From Sphingobacteriaceae bacterium (GTDB taxonomy: Bacteria > Bacteroidota > Bacteroidia > Sphingobacteriales > Sphingobacteriaceae): 42,629 nucleotides of DNA. The stretch is taken from contig JAIEMU010000002.1 in NCBI GenBank assembly GCA_019751895.1, positions 1-42,629 on the forward strand, written 5' to 3'. The notes beneath the pieces were generated by a model that saw nothing but the letters and a program-made list of their open reading frames with translations, did no database searches and was not told where the DNA came from. A program made the translations under genes and the position numbers. Position 1 is the first letter of the stretch. Each line of letters begins with the position of its first letter. Shown piece by piece: positions 3,676 through 42,629 of this stretch.

Positions 3676-6600
3676 TTAATACGCTAAGCTAGGACTTAAC
3701 CATTTTTCAGCTTCCTCAAGACTAATATTTTTTCGTTTTGCATAATCTATTACTTGGTCTTTGGTTATTTTTCCTAAACCAAAGTATCTAGCTTGTGGGT
3801 GTGAAAAGTAAAAACCACTAACGGCTGCTGTTGGGTACATGGCAAAGCTTTCCGTTAGTTTCAGTCCAATTTTATTTTCTGCGTCTAAGATATTAAATAA
3901 AGTTTCTTTTTCGGTATGGTCAGGACAAGCAGGATAACCTGGAGCTGGACGTATGCCTGCATATCGTTCTTTAATCAATTCTTGATTATTTAGGTTTTCG
4001 TCTTTTGCATAACCCCAATATTCTTTTCTAACCAATTCATGCATTCTTTCTGCAAAAGCCTCCGCCAACCTATCGGCAAGCGCTTTTGCCATGATGCTGT
4101 TGTAATCGTCATGATTTTTTTCAAATTCTGCAACCAATTCATCGCAACCAATTCCCGTTGTTACGGCAAAACCTCCAAAATAATCTTCCACTTTGGTTTC
4201 TTTTTGGGCAATAAAATCAGCAAGGGCATAATAAGGTTCATTGGCAGGCTTTTCAGCTTGTTGGCGTAAGGTGTGAATGGTTGTTTCTCCGTTTTCAGTA
4301 GATAAAACAATATCATCGCCATGAGCATACGCTGGCCAAAAACCAATTACACCCTTTGCGGTAAGTAGTTTTTCGTCTAAAATTCGTTTTAACAAAACTT
4401 GTGCATCGTCAAACAACTTTTTGGCTTCGTTGCCCACAAATTTATCCTCAAATATTTTCGGATAGCTTCCTCGCAATTCCCAAGTATGGAAAAAAGGAGT
4501 CCAATCAATATAAGGTAACAATTCTTCAAGAGGATAATTCTCAAAAACTTTTGTTCCTAAAAAACTTGGTGGATTAGCCACTTGTTCCAAATCAATTTGA
4601 AATTTTTGAGATTTGGCATCCTCGATGGTTTTAAATTGTTTATCCGTTTTTTTGTTCAAATGCGCTTCTCTTGCTTTATCATATTCAGCTTTAATATTAG
4701 CAACATATTCGTCTTTAGCATCTGGATTCATCAAAGTGCTACACACGGTTACACTGCGAGAGGCATCTAAAACGTGAATAGCTGGGCCCGAATAATTAGG
4801 CGCTATTTTTACAGCAGCATGAATACGAGAAGTGGTTGCTCCTCCTACAATCAATGGAATTTGAAAACCCTCTCTTTCCATTTCTTTTGCAAAATGAACC
4901 ATCTCATCCAACGAAGGCGTGATAAGTCCGCTCAAGCCAATAATATCGGCGTTTATTTCTTTTGCTTTTTTGATAATATCTTGCGCAGGCACCATTACGC
5001 CCATATCCACAATTTCAAAGTTATTGCAAGCCAATACCACACCCACAATATTTTTTCCAATGTCGTGCACATCTCCTTTTACAGTTGCTAGCAATATTTT
5101 TCCTGCCGAAGAACTTTGATTTTGATCGGGATTATCTAGTTTCTCTTGCTCAATATAAGGTAACAAAATAGCCACCGCTTTTTTCATTACCCTAGCCGAT
5201 TTTACCACCTGAGGTAAAAACATTTTACCCGCACCAAACAAATCCCCTACAATGTTCATTCCATCCATCAAAGGACCTTCAATCACCTGAATAGGTCGGC
5301 TGTATTTCAAACGAGCCTCTTCTACATCTATATCTAAATATTCGATTATTCCTTTTACCAAAGAATGCGACAAACGTTCTTCTACACTACTGTTTCTCCA
5401 TTGCTCATCTTTTACAATTTCTTTGCCTTTGCCTTTGATGTTTTCCGCAAGATTTACCAATCGCTCGGTAGCGTCTTCTCTTCTGTTGAGCAATACATCT
5501 TCAACGTGTTCCAATAAATTAGGTTCAATTTCTTGGTAAACTTCCAACATACCTGCATTTACAATCCCCATGTCCAATCCTGCTTTGATGGCGTGATACA
5601 AAAATGCGGCATGCATGGCTTCTCTTACGGTGTTATTTCCTCTAAACGAGAATGAAATATTGGACACCCCTCCGCTTACTTTAGCATAGGGAAGGTTTTC
5701 TTTTATCCACCTTGTGGCATTGATAAAATCCACAGCATAATTATTATGTTCCTCTAAGCCAGTGGCTACGGTAAGAATGTTTGGGTCGAAGATAATATCT
5801 TGCGCAGGGAAACCTACCTCATGCACCAAAATATCATAACTTCTTTTGCAAATTTCGATTCTACGCTCATAATTATCTGCTTGTCCCTTTTCATCAAAAG
5901 CCATTACCACCACCGCAGCGCCATATTGCATTATTTTTTTGGCACTTTCTCTAAATTTTTCTTCCCCCTCTTTCAACGAGATAGAGTTTACAATTCCTTT
6001 TCCTTGTAAACATTTCAAACCACTTTCTATAACCGACCACTTCGACGAATCGACCATGATAGGTAATTTGGCAATATCTGGCTCCGAGGCAATTAAATTC
6101 AAAAATTTAGCCATAGCCTCTTCCGAATTTATCATTCCCTCATCCATATTCACATCAATAATTTGGGCGCCACCTTCCACCTGTTGCAAAGCTACAGTAA
6201 GCGCAGCCTCGTAATCTCCTGCTAAAATCAACTTTGAAAATTTTGGCGACCCCGTAATATTGGTTCTTTCGCCTACGTTTACAAAAATACTTTCTGGCGT
6301 GATGGTCACAGGCTCTAATCCGCTCAAACGCATATGAGGAGCTATCGTAGGTATTTTTCTAGGCTTCGCTTTTTTTGCATTTTTAGCAATACATTGTATA
6401 TGCTCAGGCGTGGTGCCACAGCAACCGCCTACAATATTTACAAAACCAGCGTGTATAAAATCGTCAACCAAATGTGCTGTTTCATGTGGTTTTTCATCGT
6501 ATGCACCAAAAGCGTTGGGCAAACCTGCATTGGGATAAGCAGAAACGTAACAAGCCGCTTTGGCGGATAATTCCTCGATATGAGGACGCATCTCTTTTGC

Positions 6601-7335
6601 TCCCAAAGCGCAATTAAAACCAATACTTAAAGGATTGGCATGGGCTACCGAATTTAAAAAAGCCTCAACGGTTTGACCAGATAAAGTTCTTCCCGAAGCA
6701 TCTGTAATGGTACCCGAAATCATGATTTCTAATTTGCGACCAATAATAGCTTCATATTTTTTGATGGCTGTGATGGCTACTTTTGCATTTAGGGTATCAA
6801 AAATAGTTTCAATTAACAAAACATCCGCACCGCCATCCACCAAACCACGAATTTGTTCAGAGTAGGCTTCCTCCAATTCATCAAAAGAAATCGCTCTAAA
6901 TCCAGGGTCGTTCACATCTGGCGACATAGAAAGTGTTCGATTGGTTGGGCCTATCGCACCAGCAACAAAACATTTTCTGCCCGGATTTTCTGCCATGAAC
7001 TCCAAAACAGCTTCCTTAGCAATTTTCGCACCCTCAAAACTCATTTCATACGACAGGTCTTCCATTTGATAATCCGCCATCGAAATACGTTGCGTACTAA
7101 AGGTATTGGTTTCAATAATATCTGCACCAGCAGATAAATACGTCAAGTGTATTTTCTTGATAATATCAGGACGGGTAATGTTTAGTAAATCATTATTACC
7201 TTTTACATCACAAGGATGATTTTTAAATCTTTCTGATCTAAAATCTTCTTCCGATAAATTATATTGCTGTATCATGGTGCCCATTGCACCATCTATTACT
7301 AATATCTGATTTTCTAATTCTTCTCTTATATTCAT
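3676..7335 (-). CDS. metH: Cobalamin-dependent methionine synthase
   Basis: The 1219-residue enzyme transfers a methyl group from 5-methyl-THF to homocysteine through cobalamin. All four modules are present. The homocysteine-binding barrel (about 1-325) has its zinc ligands at GGCCGT near residue 305. The pterin-binding barrel spans about 340-610. The B12 module (about 640-890) carries the DxHxxG motif as GDVHDIGKN near residue 755. The C-terminal SAM-dependent reactivation domain (about 900-1219) has [12 protein letters not shown] near 1135. It is full length (E. coli 1227). A SAM-I riboswitch precedes the gene and metF follows it. The cobalamin need fits the B12-binding mutase subunit at 31048. 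Confidence 0.98.
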
Positions 7336-32539: not shown

Positions 32540-32905
32540 ATGGCAGATCAAAAAAACATAGAATCGATTATTGCAGATACCAAAGTTTATCTCGATAATC
32601 GATTAGATTACATTCGTTTAGTGGTGCTCGAAAAGACCGCTAAATTTTTTGCAAACTTGGTTTCCAATACTTTGTTGCTTGTCTTTTTTGGGGTTTTCAT
32701 TTTGTTTGGCAGTCTCACTTTAGGCTTTTATCTGTCGCAAATTTGGGGTAGCTATACCTTAGGTTTTGCAGCGGTAACGGGCATTTATTTGTTGCTATTT
32801 GTGGTTTTACTATTGCTAAAAGGAAAAGTGATAGAAAAGCGTTTGGCAGATTTTTTTGTCAAAATGTATTTTAATAAAATTGAAGACAAGAAGGATGAAA
32901 AGTAA
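32540..32905 (+). CDS. Phage-holin-III-superfamily-like membrane protein
   Basis: The 121-residue protein has two transmembrane helices at about 33-60 and 72-92 (NTLLLVFFGVFILFGSLTLG and AVTGIYLLLFVVLLLL) with a positively charged tail ending in DKKDEK. This resembles the holin superfamily III / YqjE type often paired with YtxH genes. It is a housekeeping membrane protein rather than a phage gene. Its last 83 bases are duplicated downstream at 34665-34747. The next gene's ATG (32895) overlaps its stop. Confidence 0.83.
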   Translation: MADQKNIESIIADTKVYLDNRLDYIRLVVLEKTAKFFANLVSNTLLLVFFGVFILFGSLTLGFYLSQIWGSYTLGFAAVTGIYLLLFVVLLLLKGKVIEKRLADFFVKMYFNKIEDKKDEK

Positions 32906-32985
32906 AATCGAAACTTTAGCGCAATTACAGCAAGAAATTAAACGTTTGGAAGCATCTTGCAACCAACAGGAAGTGATTTTAAAAC
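32823..32985 (+). repeat. 163-bp perfect direct repeat, copy 1
   Basis: Base-for-base identical to 34665-34827 by eye. It covers the last 83 bases of the holin-like gene and the first 91 bases of the following gene. Outside these limits the sequences differ at once (G/A on the left, C/A on the right). Confidence 0.95.
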
Positions 32986-33092: not shown

Positions 33093-34547
33093 ATGATTGT
33101 ATCGCAAATAAATTCACAGATAACATTAGATTATCTTCAAAAGAAGAGGGAAAATCAATATTTCGAACGTAAAGGCTTAGGTGAAAAAGATATCAAGCCA
33201 ACTAAAATTGCGGATGAGTTAATTGGTATGCTCAATGCAGATGGTGGCGTGTTGGCGTTTGGGGTGTCGGATAATGGAGAAATTCAAGATTTAAAAAGCC
33301 TTGGAGAACAACTAAGCCAATACAGAAATCTGTTTATTGATTTTATAGAGCCCCACGGCAATATTAAGCTTGAGGAAATTGAAGTAAATGGTGATTTAGT
33401 ATTTCTTTATCATGTTGATCAAGATATTGAACGCATTTTTAAACGAAAAGATAATGAGCATATTTTCCTCAGAGTGGATGATAAAAACAGGCATTTAGAT
33501 AGAAATGCTGTTAGAGCATTAGAATATGATAAACAAATAAGAAAATTTGAAGATGAAACACAGCCTGATTTTAATTTTGAAGACCTTGATAATAAATTAA
33601 TCGAGGGTTATAAGCAAAAATTAAATTACCAAGGTTCCTTACTTGACTTGCTTGTAAAGAGGCATTTGGCAATAAAAAAAGAAGGAGAATACAAAATAAA
33701 AAAAGCAGGGGTTTTACTTTTTGCAAAAGACCCTGAAAAATACATTACATCTGCATCTCTTCGATACATTCGATATGAAGGCGTAGAAGCGAAAGTTGGA
33801 ACGGAGCACAATGTGGTAAAAGATGAACGATTTGAAAACAATTTACCTTCGATTATTGGCCATGTAAGAAACTTCCTAAAAACCACTTTAAAAGATTATT
33901 TTTTTCTTGATTTAGAAACAGGACGTTTTAACAAAGTACCTGAATACCCTGAAGAAGCATGGCTTGAAGGAATTGTAAATGCACTTTGCCATCGTTCATA
34001 TAATATTCAAGGTAATGCGATTTACATAAAGCATTTTGACGATCGCATAGAAATATCTAACAGCGGACCTCTTCCTGCTCAAGTTAGCATTGAAAATATT
34101 AGAACGGAAAGATATTCTCGCAATCCACGTATCGCAAGAGCATTGGAAGACATGGGTTTTGTTCGCCAATTAAACGAGGGAGTGTCGAGAATATATCAAT
34201 CTATGGAAAAATCTATGCTTTCTATTCCCGAATACATAGAAAAAAATGGAAACGTCTATTTAATTCTCAGAAATAAGATTAGCAATCATGCCAAGACTAT
34301 TCCAGATGCAGTACTAAAAACTATTGAAAACAATTGGGGGAATTATAATGACACTCAGAAGAAAATTTTACAATATTTATTTTATCACAATCAGGCAACA
34401 GTGAACGAATTAGTTGCTTTTACGGGTATTAATGATAAAACTGTTAAACTCTATTTAAATCAGTTTATGGAGAATGAAAAAATATTGGATCGTTTGAGTG
34501 AAAAGTTGAGAGATAAAAATGCAAAATATGCCTTTATGAAGATTTAA
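33093..34547 (+). CDS. AlbA_2 (Schlafen-like) and HATPase domain protein with C-terminal winged helix
   Basis: The product has 484 residues. Residues of about 12-150 match the Schlafen AlbA_2 fold (YFERKGLGEKD, then MLNADGGVLAFGVSDNG). Residues of about 290-400 match the GHKL-like ATPase seen in RecG-C-terminal-like regulators (GIVNALCHRSYN, then IEISNSGPLP and GFVRQLNEGVSRIY). A winged helix ends the protein (TVNELVAFTGINDKTVKLYL). Such proteins are often accessory, linked to mobile DNA or defence, and thought to bind nucleic acid. It stands alone in a 1.68-kb insertion. The exact role is not known. Confidence 0.9.
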   Translation: MIVSQINSQITLDYLQKKRENQYFERKGLGEKDIKPTKIADELIGMLNADGGVLAFGVSDNGEIQDLKSLGEQLSQYRNLFIDFIEPHGNIKLEEIEVNGDLVFLYHVDQDIERIFKRKDNEHIFLRVDDKNRHLDRNAVRALEYDKQIRKFEDETQPDFNFEDLDNKLIEGYKQKLNYQGSLLDLLVKRHLAIKKEGEYKIKKAGVLLFAKDPEKYITSASLRYIRYEGVEAKVGTEHNVVKDERFENNLPSIIGHVRNFLKTTLKDYFFLDLETGRFNKVPEYPEEAWLEGIVNALCHRSYNIQGNAIYIKHFDDRIEISNSGPLPAQVSIENIRTERYSRNPRIARALEDMGFVRQLNEGVSRIYQSMEKSMLSIPEYIEKNGNVYLILRNKISNHAKTIPDAVLKTIENNWGNYNDTQKKILQYLFYHNQATVNELVAFTGINDKTVKLYLNQFMENEKILDRLSEKLRDKNAKYAFMKI

Positions 34548-34641: not shown

Positions 34642-34664
34642 AAAAAGAGAGATGCAATACAAAA

Positions 34665-34827
34665 GAAAAGTGATAGAAAAGCGTTTGGCAGATTTTTTTG
34701 TCAAAATGTATTTTAATAAAATTGAAGACAAGAAGGATGAAAAGTAAAATCGAAACTTTAGCGCAATTACAGCAAGAAATTAAACGTTTGGAAGCATCTT
34801 GCAACCAACAGGAAGTGATTTTAAAAC
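34665..34827 (+). repeat. 163-bp perfect direct repeat, copy 2
   Basis: Identical to 32823-32985 with an offset of 1842 bases. It includes an orphan 3' fragment of the holin-like gene and the start of the intact gene at 34737. Confidence 0.95.
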
Positions 34828-35162
34828 AAGATGTAACGTCTTATTTTAAGCAGTTTACATTGGCAAAAATGTTTAAGAATTACATTTTCCCAAAATCGAA
34901 AGACAAAGAAAGTAATGCCGCATCGGTAAGCAGTCAAGTTTTGTCTTTTTTACTACCTTATTTGCTCAATAAAACGATATTTAAAAACTCAAGCATGTTA
35001 ACTAAAACCATTACCACTTTGGTAAGCGGCAGGTTTAGTAGCTTTTTAACTTTAGAAAATGTATTAAGCGTAGTAGCTGAAATTAAAAATTTGTTTAATA
35101 AAAAACAGCAAGCGCCTCATTTTGCAGATTACGGCATTCCGCCAGATAGCGAAACGTATTAA
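34737..35162 (+). CDS. Small helical protein, phase-variation-free intact copy of the duplicated gene
   Basis: The product has 141 residues and an unknown function. The N-terminus is a coiled helix (SKIETLAQLQQEIKRLE), followed by a basic patch (PKSKDKES). Then comes a hydrophobic segment (SSQVLSFLLPYLLNKTIF) that could be membrane-associated. The rest is polar, ending FADYGIPPDSETY. It belongs to the YtxH/holin-like operon; its ATG overlaps the holin stop in the original arrangement, as in copy 1. ATG 34737 is preferred over an upstream in-frame ATG (34698) that lies in the holin fragment. The gene survives only because the insertion duplicated its 5' end. Confidence 0.85.
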   Translation: MKSKIETLAQLQQEIKRLEASCNQQEVILKQDVTSYFKQFTLAKMFKNYIFPKSKDKESNAASVSSQVLSFLLPYLLNKTIFKNSSMLTKTITTLVSGRFSSFLTLENVLSVVAEIKNLFNKKQQAPHFADYGIPPDSETY

Positions 35163-35469: not shown

Positions 35470-35673
35470 ATGAATAGAATTAAGGAAGTGCTTGATAAAA
35501 AAGGAATTAAACAAACGTGGCTAGCTCAGCAATTAGGCAAAAGCTACAACATGGTGAATAGTTATGTACAAAACCGACAACAACCTAGACTTGAAGTACT
35601 GCATGACATAGCTAAAATTTTAGATGTAGATGTTGTTGAATTAATTGTATCAAGTAAGAAACAAGAAAAATAG
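35470..35673 (+). CDS. XRE-family helix-turn-helix regulator
   Basis: The 67-residue protein is a single Cro/C1-type DNA-binding domain: MNRIKEVLDKKGIKQTWLAQ, the recognition helix NMVNSYVQNRQQP and then LHDIAKILDVDVVELI. ATG 35470 is chosen because an upstream ATG (35416) adds 18 unrelated residues. The McrB-like gene starts 4 bases after its stop, so it is likely the controller of the restriction operon, in the manner of a C-protein that delays nuclease expression. Confidence 0.92.
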   Translation: MNRIKEVLDKKGIKQTWLAQQLGKSYNMVNSYVQNRQQPRLEVLHDIAKILDVDVVELIVSSKKQEK

Positions 35674-35677
35674 ACTA

Positions 35678-37306
35678 ATGATTAATTATAGTATTGAACT
35701 TCATAAGTTTTTGAAACAAGCAAAAACAAGCGACTTAAAAACTAAGCACTTTGAAAAAACTTTAGAAGATTTTCAAGTTAAAGTTAGTTTTGGACAAGGT
35801 GTAGAAGCAAGAGTCCCTTGGATTTCATTTTTGAAAGAACCTAATACAACTAGTGATGGAATATATCCTGTTTATCTTTTTTTTAAGCGAGAAAATATTC
35901 TAGTATTGGCATACGGGATAAGTGAAACTAACATACCCAAAATAAATTGGAGATTAAATAATCCAACAAGCATTATTGATTTATTTTCAAGCAAAGGCTA
36001 TTCAAAACCTGATAGGTATGGAAATTCATTTGTTTACAAATCTTATAGCATTGATAATTTACCAGATGATAGTACACTAGACAAACATCTTCAAGAAATA
36101 CTTGCAATATACTCAAATCTAGACATGTCCATTGTGAAAAAACCAATTCAAGAATCTACCCTATTCAACATTGCATCTTTTCAGAAAACAACAAAAGATG
36201 CCGGTTTAATCTTTTCTACTCAACTCATTCAACGTTTTGTTGCCTCTTTGTGCACCAAACCGTTTGTAATTTGCAGCGGTCTTTCAGGTTCTGGTAAAAC
36301 AAAATTATCACAAGCCTTTGCTCAATGGATAACACAAGATGAATCTCAATATGTCATTGTACCTGTTGGTGCCGATTGGACGAATCGTGAACCGCTTTTA
36401 GGCTATCCAAATGCTTTAGATAAGGAAGAATATGTTAGCCCTGAAAATGGTGTTTTAGATTTAATGATTAGAGCAAAGGAAAATATTGAGAACACAGAAG
36501 AACCCACAAAACCCTACTTCTTGATATTAGACGAGATGAATTTAAGTCACGTTGAACGATATTTTGCTGATTTTTTGAGCACCATGGAATCTGGGGATAA
36601 AATACCATTACATAAAATTGAAAATAAAAATAACTCGTTGATGGTTCCTCCTTCAATAAACCTTCCCAAGAATTTATTCATCATTGGCACGGTAAATATT
36701 GATGAAACCACTTACATGTTTAGCCCAAAGGTTTTAGACAGAGCAAATACCATAGAATTTAGATTGACTGAAGAAGATTTAGATAAATTCATTCAAAGTG
36801 AGATACCACTAAAAATGGATTTATTAAAGACTCAAGGTGCAAATATGTCGGACGGCTTTATGGCAATGGCATTACAAGAAACAGATAAGAATTTGAAAAA
36901 TGTGGAAAAAGATTTAACACTATTCTTTTCTGAATTAAAAAAATCAGGGGCTGAATTTGGTTATAGAACAGCTAGCGAAATTGGAAGGTTGATGTTTATG
37001 TTAGAAAAACTTGGCGAATCAGGCGACAACTTACTTGATATTGCCATCATGCAGAAATTACTACCTAAATTGCATGGTTCGAGAAACAAGCTCACCAAAG
37101 TTCTTCCGATTTTAGGTGGTTTTTGTATTGAGGGTAATGATTTAAAAATTAAAGAAGATTACTTGGATAAATTCGCAAATAATAGTTTAACCGAGGTTGA
37201 ACTTAAAGCAGACCCAAAGATCAAATACAAAATATCATTCGAGAAAATTTGCAGAATGTATAAAAATGCAGTTGAAAACGGTTTTGCAAGTTACGCTGAA
37301 GCATAA
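35678..37306 (+). CDS. McrB-like AAA+ NTPase with DUF3578 N-terminal domain
   Basis: The 542-residue product is the motor subunit of a McrBC-type (type IV) restriction system. Residues of about 10-160 match the MrcB N-terminal DUF3578 domain (SFGQGVEARVPWISF, YPVYLFF), the predicted modified-DNA reader. The AAA+ domain carries Walker A G201-LSGSGKT, the Walker B region LILDEMN (D285-E286) and the McrB-type GTVNIDE signature (337-343), followed by VLDRANTIEF. A helical C-terminus of about 70 residues closes it. ATG 35678 follows the regulator by 4 bases. In McrBC, GTP use drives the nuclease along DNA; nucleotide preference here is inferred. Confidence 0.94.
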   Translation: MINYSIELHKFLKQAKTSDLKTKHFEKTLEDFQVKVSFGQGVEARVPWISFLKEPNTTSDGIYPVYLFFKRENILVLAYGISETNIPKINWRLNNPTSIIDLFSSKGYSKPDRYGNSFVYKSYSIDNLPDDSTLDKHLQEILAIYSNLDMSIVKKPIQESTLFNIASFQKTTKDAGLIFSTQLIQRFVASLCTKPFVICSGLSGSGKTKLSQAFAQWITQDESQYVIVPVGADWTNREPLLGYPNALDKEEYVSPENGVLDLMIRAKENIENTEEPTKPYFLILDEMNLSHVERYFADFLSTMESGDKIPLHKIENKNNSLMVPPSINLPKNLFIIGTVNIDETTYMFSPKVLDRANTIEFRLTEEDLDKFIQSEIPLKMDLLKTQGANMSDGFMAMALQETDKNLKNVEKDLTLFFSELKKSGAEFGYRTASEIGRLMFMLEKLGESGDNLLDIAIMQKLLPKLHGSRNKLTKVLPILGGFCIEGNDLKIKEDYLDKFANNSLTEVELKADPKIKYKISFEKICRMYKNAVENGFASYAEA

Positions 37307-37318
37307 AAGATATGTTTT

Positions 37319-38341
37319 ATGAAAGAGCATTTAAATACGAATGATTTATCACATTCCCTGGATTTTTATCAACAGGTTTCGGACTTATTAAAACAAGCTC
37401 GAGAAAATGTGATTAGGGCAATTAATACCACAATGGTGCATACCTATTTTGAGATAGGAAGAATGATAATAGAGGAAGAACAAAATGGGTCACATAGAGC
37501 TGAATATGGCAAACAAATTTTAAAAGAATTATCCAAAAAGCTCAGCAAAGATTTTGGGAAAGGGTTTTCGACTGACAACTTAGAAAGAATGAAAAAACTT
37601 TACATTCTTTATTCCAACCCAATTTCCGCAACACCTTTGCGGAAATTCACCCTTTCGTGGTCGCACTATCTTCAATTAATGCGAATAAAAAACGAAAATG
37701 AACGAAATTTTTATGAAATAGAAGCCCTAAATAATAAATGGAGTTTGAAAGAATTGGAGCGGCAGTATAATTCTAATCTTTATAACCGTTTAGCACTGAG
37801 CAAAGATAAAGAAGGTGTTAAACAACTTTCAGAAAAAGGTCAAATCATCGAAAAAGCAATAGACATTATTAAAGATCCTTATGTTTTAGAATTCTTAAAT
37901 CTACCTGATTCTAACGCTTATAGCGAAACAGAATTAGAGACGGCACTTATAGATAAATTAGAACACTTCTTATTGGAATTGGGCAAAGGTTTTACTTTTG
38001 TCGGAAGACAAGTTCGGTTCACATTTGATGAAGAGCATTTTAGGGTTGATTTGGTTTTTTACAATCGTTTACTCAAATGCTTTGTTCTTATAGATATTAA
38101 GATTGGGAAACTAAAACACCAAGACCTCGGTCAAATGCAGATGTATGTCAATTATTATGACCGATTTGTAAAACTCGATGAAGAGAACAAAACAATTGGA
38201 ATAATATTATGCAAGGATAAGAAGGATACGATGGTAGAGATTACTTTACCAGAAAATAATGAACAAATATTTGCAAGTAAGTATGCGTTGATTTTGCCAA
38301 GCAAAAGTGAATTACAACAAATAATTGAAAATAAAGATTAA
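37319..38341 (+). CDS. DUF1016 / YhcG-family PD-(D/E)XK nuclease
   Basis: The 340-residue protein has an N-terminal helical wHTH-like DUF1016 domain (TYFEIGRMIIEEEQNG, then YGKQILKEL and SWSHYLQLMRI). The C-terminal YhcG nuclease domain (about 190-335) holds a D244 within RVDLVFYN and a D259-x-K261 motif in IDIKIGK, so it looks catalytically intact, although Asp replaces the usual Glu. It lies between the McrB-like and McrC-like genes with gaps of 12 and 3 bases, so it belongs to the operon. It may be an extra nuclease or a passenger. A hairpin inside the gene is listed separately. Confidence 0.92.
   Translation: MKEHLNTNDLSHSLDFYQQVSDLLKQARENVIRAINTTMVHTYFEIGRMIIEEEQNGSHRAEYGKQILKELSKKLSKDFGKGFSTDNLERMKKLYILYSNPISATPLRKFTLSWSHYLQLMRIKNENERNFYEIEALNNKWSLKELERQYNSNLYNRLALSKDKEGVKQLSEKGQIIEKAIDIIKDPYVLEFLNLPDSNAYSETELETALIDKLEHFLLELGKGFTFVGRQVRFTFDEEHFRVDLVFYNRLLKCFVLIDIKIGKLKHQDLGQMQMYVNYYDRFVKLDEENKTIGIILCKDKKDTMVEITLPENNEQIFASKYALILPSKSELQQIIENKD
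37621..37647 (+). repeat. Perfect inverted repeat inside the DUF1016 gene
   Basis: A 10-bp stem (37621-37630 with 37638-37647) has a 7-base loop. It encodes the segment around PISATPLRKF just before the conserved SWSHY motif. Confidence 0.75.
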
Positions 38342-38344
38342 AGT

Positions 38345-40687
38345 ATGTTTAGTTCTTCGTCCAAATCATCAATAGAAATAATGTTAGACCATATAAAAAG
38401 AGGTTTAACATTGACTATTGATGCAAAAAAAGACAACACATTATTTGATTGTAAAGATGCAGTGCTAGAAGGAGAAGCTCAATATCAACTAAATGAAGGC
38501 TGTTTTTATGATTATGAACTCTCAGAACCTAATTATATGTTCAAACCTATGGAGTGTATTCAGGCTCATCCTAGGAATAAACATATTGGTATTATTGCAC
38601 CAAATATTTATGTAGGGACATTAACTTTAGAAATTATAGATAAAGAAAAACCGAATGTTTTTCATAAAATTAAACTAGAGGTCCGTTCTGTAAAAAGTGA
38701 TTACAAATCCGACTATCGCTATATGTTGGAGAGTATCACTGAAAAGTGTACGGATTTAATTATGCAGATTGATTCACCGATTAATCAACATTTTGAAACC
38801 GATTTTAATAAGAACCCAGAGACTTTATATCAACGCTTTTCTTTTGTAAAATCATTAATTGATTCACTAGAATTTGAAGAAGCTATTCAAAAAATAGTGT
38901 CCAATCCTACTACCAAATGGGAAGAGGAACATGAGGAAAAACATATCCGCAGCATACGAAGATTTAATCAAAAAAACATAAAACAATTGGTTACCAAAAG
39001 TAACCGAATGGAAATAAGTAGGGATCATTTTTTGAATAAGTCTTATGGATTAACCTCTATTCCAACTAAAATTGATAGTACAAGGAAAACAGAATCTATA
39101 GACACAGCTGAAAATCGCTTTATTAAACATGCGTTAGAAGAATTTCTTTTTTTCTGCGAAAATTGCGAATTGAAATTTGAAAAATATTCAACCGCCAAAT
39201 TGGAATCGGGACTACTAGCAACCAAAATTTCTACTTTATTAAACCAATCATTTTTTAAGCAAATATCACGACCTACCTCTCTAAAACTGAACAGCCCAGT
39301 GCTGCAAAGGAAAAGCGGATATAGAGAGATTTTAAATGCTCGACTTAAGTTTGACTTAGCCGCTAAATTGATTTGGAATGGTGGAGACAATGTATATGAA
39401 GCAGGCAAAAAAAATATTGCTACGCTATATGAATATTGGTTGTTTTTTACTTTGTTAGATTTATTAAAAGAAGTGTTTGAAATTGAACCCAAAAGTATTG
39501 CAGAATTGATTCAATACGATGAAGGTCAATTGTCGCTAAACTTAAAACAAGGAACGGTAATAGCAATGAAGGGAGTATACAAATCTCCTTCAAGAAAGTT
39601 AAATATTCAATTCTCCTATAATCGTTCATTTGGTGGTGGCAAAACTTTTCCGAATTCAGGCAGTTACACAACTACACTTCGTCCTGATTATACTTTATCC
39701 ATTTGGCCTGCGGAAATAACAGAAGCAAAAGATGCAGAAAAAACAGAATTGATTACACACATTCACTTTGACGCAAAATACAAAGTCAAAAATTTCTATG
39801 CGCTAATTTCTAAATCTACAGACGAGGAGTTGACAGCGGAAGAAAACATTAAACTAACTGAGGAAGAGGTAGAGGAAGAAAAAAAAGGCACTTTTAAAAA
39901 TGCAGATTTATTAAAAATGCATGCTTATAAAGACGCTATTAGAAGAACTGGTGGTGCTTATGTTTTATATCCAGGCGAGGGCAAGGATGAGCCTTTTAGA
40001 GGTTTTCACGAATTAATTCCCGGCCTAGGGGCTTTTGTAATTAAACCCACTAAAGACGAGAAGGATAAAGAACACTTAAAAAATTTCATAAAAAAAGTAG
40101 TTGCAAACTTTATTGACAGAGCATCTCAAAGAGAATATACCGCTGTTAAAATTTATGATATTCATAAACATAAAAAAGACGATAAAATCATTCTAAATGA
40201 ATCAATGCCTGAATTTTTGGACTCAGCAAAAAAAGAGAAGTTAATACCAGACGAAACATTCGTATTAGTTGGATACTGCAAGAATAGTTTGAATATTAAT
40301 TGGTATAAAAAAGAAGGTAAATATAATTTCCGAATGGATAATGACAAAGGTTCATTATGTTTAGAAAACAATGTTGTAAATGCAAGATATTTGCTACTTA
40401 GAGAATCAGGAAAAGATACTGCAAATAAAGTGTTCAAAATAAAAAGCAAAGGACCAAAAGTAATTCAAGGTTCTGTTTTAGAAAAAGAAGGTTATAAATC
40501 AGATAAAATCAAAGACTATTATTTGGTAATTGAAATAGAAAAAGAAGAAAGCAATGACTTTAATGGAGCTAGTTTTAATTTTAAAGAATTGAAAGAATAT
40601 AAAGAAATTCCAGAAGATAAATACAAAAAGCCGGCTATTCCATTTGCAGTAAGCTTAACAGAATTAATGAAAGTGAAAGTAAAATAG
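38345..40687 (+). CDS. DUF2357 McrC-like restriction nuclease
   Basis: The 780-residue protein is the predicted nuclease partner of the McrB-like motor. Residues of about 60-330 match the DUF2357 region, with the conserved NRFIKHALEEFL helix near 255. The PD-(D/E)XK core (about 345-510) includes YEYWLFF, RPDYTLSI (D448) and HFDAKYK (D476-x-K478), an intact catalytic set. The C-terminal 190 residues (about 590-780) form an additional beta-rich domain (VLVGYCKNS, NFRMDNDKGSL, ARYLLLRESG, FKIKSKGPKVI), perhaps a modified-base reader. It follows the DUF1016 gene by 3 bases. It is longer than E. coli McrC (about 350). Confidence 0.92.
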   Translation: MFSSSSKSSIEIMLDHIKRGLTLTIDAKKDNTLFDCKDAVLEGEAQYQLNEGCFYDYELSEPNYMFKPMECIQAHPRNKHIGIIAPNIYVGTLTLEIIDKEKPNVFHKIKLEVRSVKSDYKSDYRYMLESITEKCTDLIMQIDSPINQHFETDFNKNPETLYQRFSFVKSLIDSLEFEEAIQKIVSNPTTKWEEEHEEKHIRSIRRFNQKNIKQLVTKSNRMEISRDHFLNKSYGLTSIPTKIDSTRKTESIDTAENRFIKHALEEFLFFCENCELKFEKYSTAKLESGLLATKISTLLNQSFFKQISRPTSLKLNSPVLQRKSGYREILNARLKFDLAAKLIWNGGDNVYEAGKKNIATLYEYWLFFTLLDLLKEVFEIEPKSIAELIQYDEGQLSLNLKQGTVIAMKGVYKSPSRKLNIQFSYNRSFGGGKTFPNSGSYTTTLRPDYTLSIWPAEITEAKDAEKTELITHIHFDAKYKVKNFYALISKSTDEELTAEENIKLTEEEVEEEKKGTFKNADLLKMHAYKDAIRRTGGAYVLYPGEGKDEPFRGFHELIPGLGAFVIKPTKDEKDKEHLKNFIKKVVANFIDRASQREYTAVKIYDIHKHKKDDKIILNESMPEFLDSAKKEKLIPDETFVLVGYCKNSLNINWYKKEGKYNFRMDNDKGSLCLENNVVNARYLLLRESGKDTANKVFKIKSKGPKVIQGSVLEKEGYKSDKIKDYYLVIEIEKEESNDFNGASFNFKELKEYKEIPEDKYKKPAIPFAVSLTELMKVKVK

Positions 40688-40808: not shown

Positions 40809-40865
40809 ATCAAATCATCTTCACAAAATCCTGCATAGCCAAAGCAGGGTTTTGTGTTTTCATAA
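40809..40865 (-). repeat. Displaced copy A of the trpC 3' end
   Basis: It is 57 bases and matches 41888-41944 at 55 of 57 positions. On the minus strand it still reads MKTQNPALAMQDFVKMI and a TGA stop. One difference is silent (AAC/AAT) and one gives Lys for Arg. It contains a 13-bp stem (40822-40834 with 40844-40856, one weak pair). Confidence 0.95.
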
Positions 40866-40880
40866 TTTTTACAACCTTTT

Positions 40881-41792
40881 TTAAAGCAGTTCTTGTATTG
40901 AGTTTAAAATAGTATCTACCGATTTTTTATCCATTTTTGAAAAAGCAAACCATTTTTTGCCCAAATCTTTTAATGAAGCACCTATATGATATACTTCGTT
41001 TTCGTCGATAATTAAAAATCGGTCGTGGCTTTTGTCAAAAGTTTTTAGTTTAAAATTCCCGTATTGCTCGTTGGCTTTTTGCACATCTAAGATTGTTTGT
41101 TTCGCTATGTTTTTAGTAAGTAGCAGTGCCTTTACTTTTTTGTCTTTTTTGGATAAAAGTGTAAGTGTATTTTCATCAATATAATTATCAATCAACACAA
41201 TACTCTTTGTTGCCGAACGAATAATCTTTGAAGCCAATTCGTAGGCATCAAAAACACTTTCGTTAAAAAAAACACCTTGAGCTGGAATTGTATTTTTGCT
41301 TTCGAGAGCTTTAAAAACTCGCTCAATTTTTTGTTCAGTTTCAAGTTGTTTAAATTCTATCTTGTCTAAACGGTGACTTATCAACGTATTTTCGAGCAGT
41401 ATTTGGCGCATTTTTACGAAAGCATTCATAATCTCAATGCTGGCATTAATTGCTGTGTCGCTATTTAACACAGCAGATAGCATTGCTACGCCTTGTTCGG
41501 TAAAAACATAAGGGTTTGTTCTTCGTTTTGTGGTCGCAATTTGCGACTGCAAATTAAATTGCTTTTCTGTGGTCGCAATTTGCGACTGCAAAAATTTCCA
41601 TTCTTCACCAGAAACTTGAAACATAAAGGCCTCAGGGAACCTTTTGCTATTCCGTTTCACTTGTTCGTTAATTCTTTTTGTTTCAACATCATACAACTCC
41701 GAAAGATGATAATCGACCATTACTTGTACGCCACGAACAGTGTATATTCTATTTTCAATATGCATCGGTGTGTTACTTAATTTCGTATTCAT
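40881..41792 (-). CDS. ORF6N-domain protein with C-terminal PLD-like domain
   Basis: The product has 303 residues. The N-terminal ORF6N domain (about 10-130) carries VMVDYHLSELYDVETKRINE, RFPEAFMFQ and PYVFTEQGVAML, a phage-antirepressor-related DNA-binding module. Two in-frame 13-residue repeats (LQSQIATT) sit in the middle. The C-terminal part (about 180-303) has one HKD-like motif, HDRFLIIDENEVYHIG, as in phospholipase-D-like nucleases; Arg replaces the usual Lys. One HKD motif per chain would need dimerisation. It is the only gene in the trpC-linked insertion. A regulatory or defence role is possible but unproven. Confidence 0.88.
   Translation of the reverse strand: MNTKLSNTPMHIENRIYTVRGVQVMVDYHLSELYDVETKRINEQVKRNSKRFPEAFMFQVSGEEWKFLQSQIATTEKQFNLQSQIATTKRRTNPYVFTEQGVAMLSAVLNSDTAINASIEIMNAFVKMRQILLENTLISHRLDKIEFKQLETEQKIERVFKALESKNTIPAQGVFFNESVFDAYELASKIIRSATKSIVLIDNYIDENTLTLLSKKDKKVKALLLTKNIAKQTILDVQKANEQYGNFKLKTFDKSHDRFLIIDENEVYHIGASLKDLGKKWFAFSKMDKKSVDTILNSIQELL
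41529..41592 (-). repeat. In-frame 39-bp-spaced repeat with hairpin units in the ORF6N gene
   Basis: An identical 25-base unit occurs at 41529-41553 and 41568-41592 (period 39 bases, 13 codons). Each unit includes GTCGCA-ATT-TGCGAC, a 6-bp hairpin. Copy number could vary by slippage without a frameshift. Confidence 0.9.
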
Positions 41793-41887
41793 ATCCGTTC
41801 TAATTTCGATTCATTATAAAAGCACTTTTGGGATGACCATCGCTTTGCCTCGATTATCAAGATACAACTTAGATGCAATTTACTAAA

Positions 41888-41944
41888 ATCAAATCATCCT
41901 CACAAAATCCTGCATAGCCAAAGCAGGATTTTGTGTTTTCATAA
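41888..41944 (-). repeat. trpC 3'-end repeat, copy B (in the active gene)
   Basis: This copy forms the last 18 codons of trpC, including its stop. Inside it is a perfect 13-bp stem (41901-41913 with 41923-41935) with a 9-base loop. Copy A at 40809-40865 differs by two bases. Confidence 0.95.
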
Positions 41945-42629
41945 AGTTCTCGCCAATTAAAAAGCCATTAAAACCTACGGATTTTAATTTTTTTATCGTT
42001 TCGGGATTGTCGATGGCGCTTTCTGATATTTTCAAAAATTCGGAAGGAATTTTATCTACCAAGCCAAACGAGGTCTCAATATCTACCGTAAAAGTAGCCA
42101 AATTGCGGTTGTTGATGCCAATGGCATCCACATTTGGGCAAATGCTTCGTTCCAATTCTTCTAAATTGTGTACTTCTAACAATACATTTAAACCCAAACT
42201 TTGGGCTAATTTCCCAAAATCAACAATTTGTTGAGGCGTTAAAATAGCGGCAATCAACAAAATAATATCTGCTCCCCAAGCCTTAGCCTCCAAAATTTGG
42301 TATTCATCAATGATAAAATCTTTACGCAAAATAGGAATATCGTTGGCTGTTCTGGCTTGTAACAAATCTTCGGTTTTGCCACCAAAAAAATCGGTATCGG
42401 TTAAAACGGATAAAGCCGATGCACCCGCTAGGTTGTAGCCTTTGGTTACCTCAATTACGCTAGCAGTGTCGTTAATAATCCCCTTTGAAGGCGATTGACG
42501 TTTAAATTCGGCGATAATGCCGCTACGATTTGGGTCTAGCAAAAAATCACGAAAAACGAGTGGTTTACTTAAAAAAGGAATACAGGTTTCCAACGAAGCG
42601 ATGCTTTTTATTTGTTTAGCCCAATTAAC
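41889..42629 (-). CDS. trpC: Indole-3-glycerol-phosphate synthase (N-terminus beyond the window)
   Basis: At least 246 residues are encoded; the frame runs open to the right edge. TrpC closes the indole ring in tryptophan synthesis. The TIM-barrel signs are present: IIAEFKRQSPSKG (active-site Lys), PILRKDFIIDEYQI, LLEVHNLEEL, IGINNRNLATF and SESAIDN, ending FLIGENFMKTQNP. A TTG at 42593 could be mistaken for the start, but the frame continues upstream with a TrpC-like sequence (WAKQIKSIASLE), so the true start is off the window. Its 3' end is the target of the ORF6N insertion. Confidence 0.95.
   Translation of the reverse strand, partial: VNWAKQIKSIASLETCIPFLSKPLVFRDFLLDPNRSGIIAEFKRQSPSKGIINDTASVIEVTKGYNLAGASALSVLTDTDFFGGKTEDLLQARTANDIPILRKDFIIDEYQILEAKAWGADIILLIAAILTPQQIVDFGKLAQSLGLNVLLEVHNLEELERSICPNVDAIGINNRNLATFTVDIETSFGLVDKIPSEFLKISESAIDNPETIKKLKSVGFNGFLIGENFMKTQNPALAMQDFVRMI

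Follow-up and report, generated by a model that had tools for sequence, protein, structure and literature searches.

An ORF6N gene probably inserted at the 3′ end of trpC with a long direct duplication of its target, and comparable units in the same genome and in relatives

The ORF6N gene next to trpC is probably a passenger that was inserted at the 3′ end of trpC, leaving a long direct duplication of its target, and similar events probably took place elsewhere in the same genome and in relatives. The window, that is, the whole stretch of DNA analysed here, is an entire contig of 42,629 bases. It belongs to a genome of 2,318,821 bases in 217 contigs with a completeness of 79.67%, and as far as the contig number and the completeness tell, the source is a draft metagenome assembly. 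The 3′ end of trpC occurs twice in this contig, and the features of this region (unit 1) are as follows:

40809–40865, minus strand: unit 1 repeat copy A, a displaced trpC end that still reads MKTQNPALAMQDFVKMI followed by a stop
40881–41792, minus strand: ORF6N gene with a PLD-like C-terminal half, the cargo of unit 1 (PF10543, E 5e-32; PADLOC PDC-S05)
41888–41944, minus strand: unit 1 repeat copy B, the live trpC end, equal to copy A at 55 of 57 positions
41889–42629, minus strand: trpC, indole-3-glycerol phosphate synthase (PF00218, IGPS, E 5.8e-72), with the frame open to the contig end

As the preliminary description had stated, 57 nt of the trpC 3′ end are present as a direct repeat with 96% identity and a spacing of 1079 nt, and a single gene, the ORF6N gene of 303 codons, lies between the copies; that copy B is the live end and that copy A stays in frame to a stop are likewise both seen in the sequence. 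The two differences between copies A and B are AAT/AAC, which is silent, and AGG/AAG, which exchanges Arg and Lys. The 5′ end of trpC lies beyond the right end of the contig. When the 72-nt copy-A region was compared with its own genome by BLAST, copy B was recovered at E 3.9e-21, and the sole further match was the self-complementary one of a dyad within the repeat; at this BLAST sensitivity, the unit 1 repeat is thus neither a chance match nor a dispersed repeat. We infer that unit 1 itself arose by insertion. The trpC protein of the window is nearest to Pedobacter (best identity 78%), and none of 145 genus genomes, in which the best trpC DNA identity was 79%, is a close relative that shows the trpC site of unit 1 without an insert.

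From 80 genus genomes, the DNA downstream of trpC was taken (roughly 8 kb in the first 20 genomes and as much as 19 kb in the remaining ones, with shorter stretches where contigs ended) and was analysed together with 80 named loci. The trpC end was recognized in 119 of 161 loci, a count that includes the window and some genomes twice; the trpC-end pattern excluded the other 42, none of which belonged to the 80 genus loci. The gene downstream of trpC varies between genomes. A displaced trpC end with cargo between it and the live end was detected at three loci, namely, the window, L046 and G162. At L046, an 83-nt repeat (93%) encloses the genes of a DUF433 and a DUF5615 protein, and a feoA-like gene (named by eye) follows. 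In the single-contig genome G162, a repeat of about 105 nt (80%) encloses small minus-strand ORFs, and the displaced trpC end is followed by an ABC-transporter-like gene (also named by eye). This gene stands directly after trpC in L040 and L047, and therefore both loci show the uninserted state of the G162 site. The varied cargo at the trpC end that the preliminary description had suggested looking for was thus found in two other genomes, and its view of unit 1 as a mobile unit agrees with these data, since the unit acts like an element inserted at the 3′ end of a gene without damage to trpC. Empty trpC sites, which it had also proposed to seek, were obtained for G162 but not for unit 1 itself, the closest trpC being the one of 79% identity.

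A second pair in G162 (64 nt, 84%) indicates that a hairpin downstream of trpC was duplicated as well. Over their final 60 nt, the live and displaced trpC ends of G162 show 75% identity, and both resemble ends found in other Pedobacter; one of the two probably came in with the insert, and the pair fits better with an insert bringing its own trpC end than with a simple recent copy of the target. A DNA search with trpC gave a match in 140 of the 145 genus genomes, and within the limit of this search, which misses weaker repeats, a second trpC-end match was obtained only in the own genome and in G162; 60 of the 140 genomes were covered by this search alone. Weak partial matches at L068 (27 nt, 85%) and L111 (35 nt, 77%) were not counted. 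All three trpC cases have the 10-mer TTATGAAAAC in common within the repeat, and this is simply conserved trpC coding sequence. In one genome, seen twice (L041 and L227), 99 bp spanning the trpC end are simply duplicated in tandem. In Pedobacter sp. Leaf170 (L042), a palindrome with 26-bp arms is located on both sides of trpC (5851–5909 and 6739–6797); these repeats were set aside as REP-like palindromes.

A second unit was identified in the same window, with the following features:

32540–32905, plus strand: holin-like (Phage_holin_3_6) host gene, whole; match below the family cut-off
32819–32985, plus strand: unit 2 left repeat, 167 nt, with the end of the holin-like gene and the start of the next gene (truncated here)
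33093–34547, plus strand: unit 2 cargo, a protein with SLFN_AlbA_2 and HATPase_c_4 (Pfam E 8.5e-16 and 2e-19)
34661–34827, plus strand: unit 2 right repeat, 167 nt, with the end of the holin-like gene (truncated here) and the start of the intact next gene
34737–35162, plus strand: downstream host gene of unit 2, intact, without a Pfam match

The two copies differ at 1 of 167 positions (99.4% alike) and are spaced 1842 nt apart; one gene lies between them, and both host genes are whole. The cargo protein also matched the PADLOC pAgo profile (E 1e-42 over residues 47–405). The holin-like gene and the next gene are adjacent in L263 and L264, that is, in both of the two analysed loci that hold both genes, which represents the uninserted state of this site.

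Having sampled 40 stretches of the own genome, we identified 15 direct and 0 inverted repeat pairs in 799 kb of it within the limits of 40–300 nt in length, at least 78% identity, a gap of more than 250 nt and a start-to-start distance of up to 5000 nt. Three of the direct pairs lie within single repetitive ORFs (L292, L295 14706–15591 and L304) and several are sub-pairs of one locus, leaving eight units, or six without the doubtful L271 and L273. Ten single-contig genus genomes (400 kb) gave five direct pairs and one inverted pair, and the five control pairs were all located, as judged by eye, between paralogous genes or Rhs-like copies. The stretches downstream of trpC in relatives (1.23 Mb) gave seven direct and three inverted pairs; two of the seven are those in G162, and the others look like dispersed repeats or have no gene between them. 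Other Bacteroidota loci, amounting to another 0.70 Mb, yielded three direct pairs, one of them at L072. As the own genome was picked for the finding, this comparison of rates is not blind.

Among these units, the one at L280 (unit 3) shows a 55-nt repeat, differing at 3 of 55 positions, that spans the stop of gldD and the beginning of the following gene, which is metallo-beta-lactamase-like (both names given by eye). The cargo consists of two paralogous genes of 231 and 232 codons, the second being 69% identical to the first. In all 29 loci examined, which are the best-matching of 58 other genomes searched, gldD and the next gene are adjacent (gap of at most about 140 nt), which represents the uninserted state of the L280 site. 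At L295, a small gene and the gene of a ParE-like toxin are enclosed by a 128-nt repeat (84%), and at L309, a 53-nt repeat resembling a terminator flanks a gene of 903 codons that matches a TonB plug domain. The repeats of units 1 and 2, L280 and L295 have no extra copy in the sampled 799 kb beyond self-complementary matches. L273 has a 120-nt repeat around a 272-codon lipoprotein-like gene; L273 and L271 are doubtful and may be dispersed repeats, because parts of their repeats recur elsewhere in the genome.

Several other arrangements were observed alongside. At L271 (12515–14667), three copies of an intergenic repeat of 111–205 nt alternate with toxin–antitoxin-like modules, one with an HTH gene and one with a HepT and nucleotidyltransferase pair, like a small array. 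At L278 (15937–16855), a 172-nt direct repeat surrounds an IS200-like Y1 transposase gene. At L072 (9006–9943; Cytophagales), a PIN-domain gene and its small partner are surrounded by a 110-nt direct repeat (85%), and a pheT-like gene (named by eye) follows closely. Other pairs were rejected: the pair at a gene 3′ end in L038 is a dispersed palindromic repeat with 16 matches in its own genome, those of L207, L253, L254, L065 and L090 are dispersed palindromic or intergenic repeats (by eye), and those of L204 have no ORF of 80 codons between them.

We also scanned for ORF ends duplicated more than 250 nt downstream. Across 81 loci including the window (1756 frames), three such ends were detected, two in the window and one in G162, and each of two internal control stretches gave none. 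The 80 named loci (1363 frames) gave five, namely, the dispersed repeat of L038, the tandem duplication of L041, L046 and two in L073; the L073 ends appear in both controls too, as gene duplications.

The trpC repeat contains a dyad in each copy:

40822–40856: imperfect dyad in copy A, one mismatch
41901–41935, no strand assigned: 13-bp dyad with a 9-nt loop in copy B, perfect 13+13; relatives without it

The perfect 13+13 dyad of copy B is present just as had been described. In the 799 kb of the own genome, we took stop-to-stop frames on either strand that reach 150 codons and scanned their final 57 nt; a perfect dyad of at least 13 bp was found at 1 of 624 frame ends. This one must be the trpC end, and hence the trpC dyad, although chosen post hoc, is unusual. 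The trpC ends of relatives have perfect arms of only 3–7 bp (76 loci, some genomes twice) and use other residues or codons at the dyad position. In nine other repeats, the best perfect arms were 5 bp (unit 2), 4 bp (L280), 6 bp (L271), 4 bp (L273), 7 bp (L278), 12 bp (L295), 16 bp (L309), 4 bp (L046) and 15 bp (G162), that is, at most 7 bp in six and at least 12 bp in three; the three long-armed ones look like intergenic or terminator hairpins. Given the short arms both in the trpC ends of relatives and in six of the nine other repeats, the hairpin is not a common feature of the units. Its role as a recombination target, proposed in the preliminary description, was rejected on the same counts, the dyad being kept neither in relatives nor in most comparable repeats.

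The ORF6N protein matches the PADLOC family PDC-S05 over nearly its full length (E 1.9e-115, residues 7–300 of 303), and we suspect from this match that the gene is a candidate phage-defence gene, the family name itself being a candidate label. The assignment of its C-terminal half as PLD-like is putative, by motif only. A stretch H-x-R-x4-D ... I-G-A-S is conserved in the window protein and seven homologues (L115–L121, with one gap in L121; L122 was missed by the script and left out of this comparison), and we take the HKD consensus to be HxKx4D, the window protein having HxRx4D. Neither the PLD models of Pfam nor PDB sequences gave a match to the protein, and a single-sequence structure prediction was unusable (pLDDT 34.7). 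Within the gene (41526–41592), a 28-nt stretch (LQSQIATT) is repeated in frame 39 nt apart.

Among 395 genomes of the class, 17 (counting the own one) gave a match to the ORF6N protein at E ≤1e-60. The protein matched 64 plasmid records, with at least 80% coverage in five, one of which is the plasmid pTS1 of Treponema saccharophilum (L363); there, the homologue lies inside a restriction–modification cluster, with a methyltransferase and a winged-helix (HTH) gene on one side and subunit S on the other. Such a scattered distribution is consistent with horizontal transfer. One further ORF6N match in the own genome is a short gene on contig C47. A pattern scan of viral contigs for ORF6N-PLD relatives gave zero matches, no phage record covered 80% of the protein, and no paper in the open-licence literature joined ORF6N and phospholipase D. 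In that literature, ORF6N appears together with defence in two papers and with Pedobacter in one, which deal with a phage and with Lactobacillus genomes, and PDC-S05 appears in two. To the left of the ORF6N gene in the window lie three further genes, two of them neighbouring defence genes:

35645–37306, plus strand: McrB-like protein (MrcB_N; PADLOC PDC-M26A), neighbouring defence gene
37319–38341, plus strand: YhcG/DUF1016 PDDEXK nuclease (PADLOC PDC-S02), neighbouring defence gene
38345–40687, plus strand: DUF2357 and PDDEXK_7 protein in an McrC-like position, without a PADLOC match

The surroundings of ORF6N genes elsewhere were analysed for duplicated ends, a check that followed from the preliminary description. 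Eight full-length ORF6N-PLD homologues of the genus (L115–L122; nine are listed) had no flanking repeat at E <0.02 within 1.5-kb flanks, the best pairs having 29 nt with 79% identity and 19 nt with 89%, and 21 shorter ORF6N genes gave nothing above 23 nt at E 0.002. Because these eight relatives lack flanking repeats, the ORF6N gene is probably a passenger.

Of the alternatives, the one that survives best, although we regard it as unlikely, is that small elements lacking an integrase are inserted at gene 3′ ends by a tyrosine integrase supplied in trans, which restores the gene, with a core in the trpC codons GENFMKT. The three trpC cases have TTATGAAAAC in the repeat followed by two natural-looking trpC ends, and ten tyrosine-recombinase matches are present elsewhere in the genome. 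However, the distance from the start of the displaced copy to its end is different in each case (57, 83 and about 105 nt), the shared 10-mer is conserved coding sequence, units 2 and 3 have no core in common with it, none of 25 Pfam-scanned proteins of the window contig is a recombinase, and none of the ten matches lies on that contig. No core is common to the trpC, holin and gldD repeats, which together with the varying repeat length speaks against one site-specific enzyme. No integrase or transposase was found in units 1 and 2, L046, L271, L273, L295, L309 or the first L280 gene, the scan leaving out the second L280 gene, the small partner of L072 and the G162 ORFs; the exception among the units is L278, with the Y1 transposase as its cargo.

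That the duplications are an assembly artefact or a strain mixture in a draft genome is improbable. The fragmentation into 217 contigs, the incomplete genome and the position of trpC at a contig end would favour this, but the copies differ (2 of 57, 1 of 167 and 3 of 55 positions) and are hence distinct sequences, the trpC anatomy recurs in the single-contig genome G162, and false joins are not expected to yield 15 direct and 0 inverted pairs. More improbable still is an ordinary tandem duplication of a gene-holding stretch followed by deletion, or a chance pairing of dispersed repeats. The tandem duplication in L041/L227 and the dispersed palindromic repeats of other genomes, such as that of L038 with its 16 matches, show that both kinds of event occur, but the cargo is wholly absent from uninserted sites and there are 0 inverted pairs in 799 kb; relatives with cargo downstream of a single trpC end were not seen, but none of them is close. 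Finally, the proposal of the preliminary description that the ORF6N-PLD protein itself, as a recombinase or nuclease, moves unit 1 via the trpC hairpin is hardly credible: its conserved PLD-like motif, its place as the sole gene of unit 1 and the rarity of the dyad (1 of 624 frame ends) stand against eight tested full-length homologues (of nine listed) without flanking repeats, units 2, 3 and L046 without an ORF6N gene, and dyads of 3–7 bp at the trpC ends of relatives.

We therefore return to the insertion of the ORF6N gene as a passenger with duplication of its target. The duplicated piece would keep trpC intact on one side and leave a displaced, unused trpC end on the other, and several such events would have occurred in this genome and its relatives, the cargo being small defence, toxin–antitoxin-like, surface-protein-like and other genes. 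Insertion may have taken place by either of two routes: a small circle with one copy of the repeat could join by a single crossover, or replication could switch template and resume 50–200 nt upstream. We think such short-homology recombination likelier than a site-specific integrase. Of the two chemistries considered likely here, one was proposed for plants by Woodhouse et al. (PMC2869330), according to the passage cited: a repeat-bracketed gene becomes circular and integrates through homology. As a wider and tentative suggestion, which we consider rather doubtful, this Pedobacter lineage may have an active, integrase-free insertion of small immune and toxin–antitoxin genes, in which 50–200 nt of target are duplicated and favoured 3′ ends such as that of trpC are reused. 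If true, defence islands would be built one gene at a time. How integrase-less defence and toxin–antitoxin genes enter chromosomes is poorly understood, and several units, some with an uninserted site in relatives, provide exact junctions for comparing mechanisms.

Three known systems can be compared with these units. Islands and prophages driven by an integrase insert at gene 3′ ends and restore the gene, as e14 and phage 21 do at icd. As in unit 1, the gene end is supplied on the side of the insert and the old end is displaced to the far side; unlike them, unit 1 has no integrase, is approximately 1 kb long and has no fixed core. Integron gene cassettes are single-gene units with attC ends of the form GTTRRRY/RYYYAAC. 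They resemble unit 1 in the single gene and in the hairpin within the repeat, but GTTRRRY is absent from either strand of the 57-nt trpC repeat (by eye), and the hairpin is missing from most other units.

The third system, insertion with long target duplication, was reportedly described by Nobusato, Uchiyama, Ohashi and Kobayashi in 2000 (Gene 259:99). According to the passages cited, the insertion of some restriction–modification systems is accompanied by long target duplications that vary in length and measure roughly 100 bp (PMC3874152), with an example from Helicobacter pylori (PMC1643837) and one more mention (PMC4978471). No paper in the open-licence literature joined insertion of this type and Bacteroidetes. 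The likeness lies in the insertion of a complete small gene or set of genes between direct repeats of the target, which are variable and around 100 bp long (here 57, 167, 55 and 128 nt for the own genome; relatives have 83 and about 105 nt), in cargo of a selfish or defence type and in the lack of a tie to a known mobile element. The printed cases, as far as these passages go, concern restriction–modification genes, and the named ones Helicobacter pylori; here, in contrast, the cargo is not restriction–modification but a PDC-S05 ORF6N gene, an AlbA_2/HATPase gene, toxin–antitoxin-like and other genes, the host belongs to the Bacteroidota, and the insertions lie partly at gene 3′ ends, with different cargo at one trpC end. 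We treat restriction–modification cargo as typical of the printed cases rather than as defining. The anatomy thus matches insertion with long target duplication, in print for restriction–modification genes, with other cargo and in the Bacteroidota, and the pattern described in those passages is extended to other immune genes and to another phylum.
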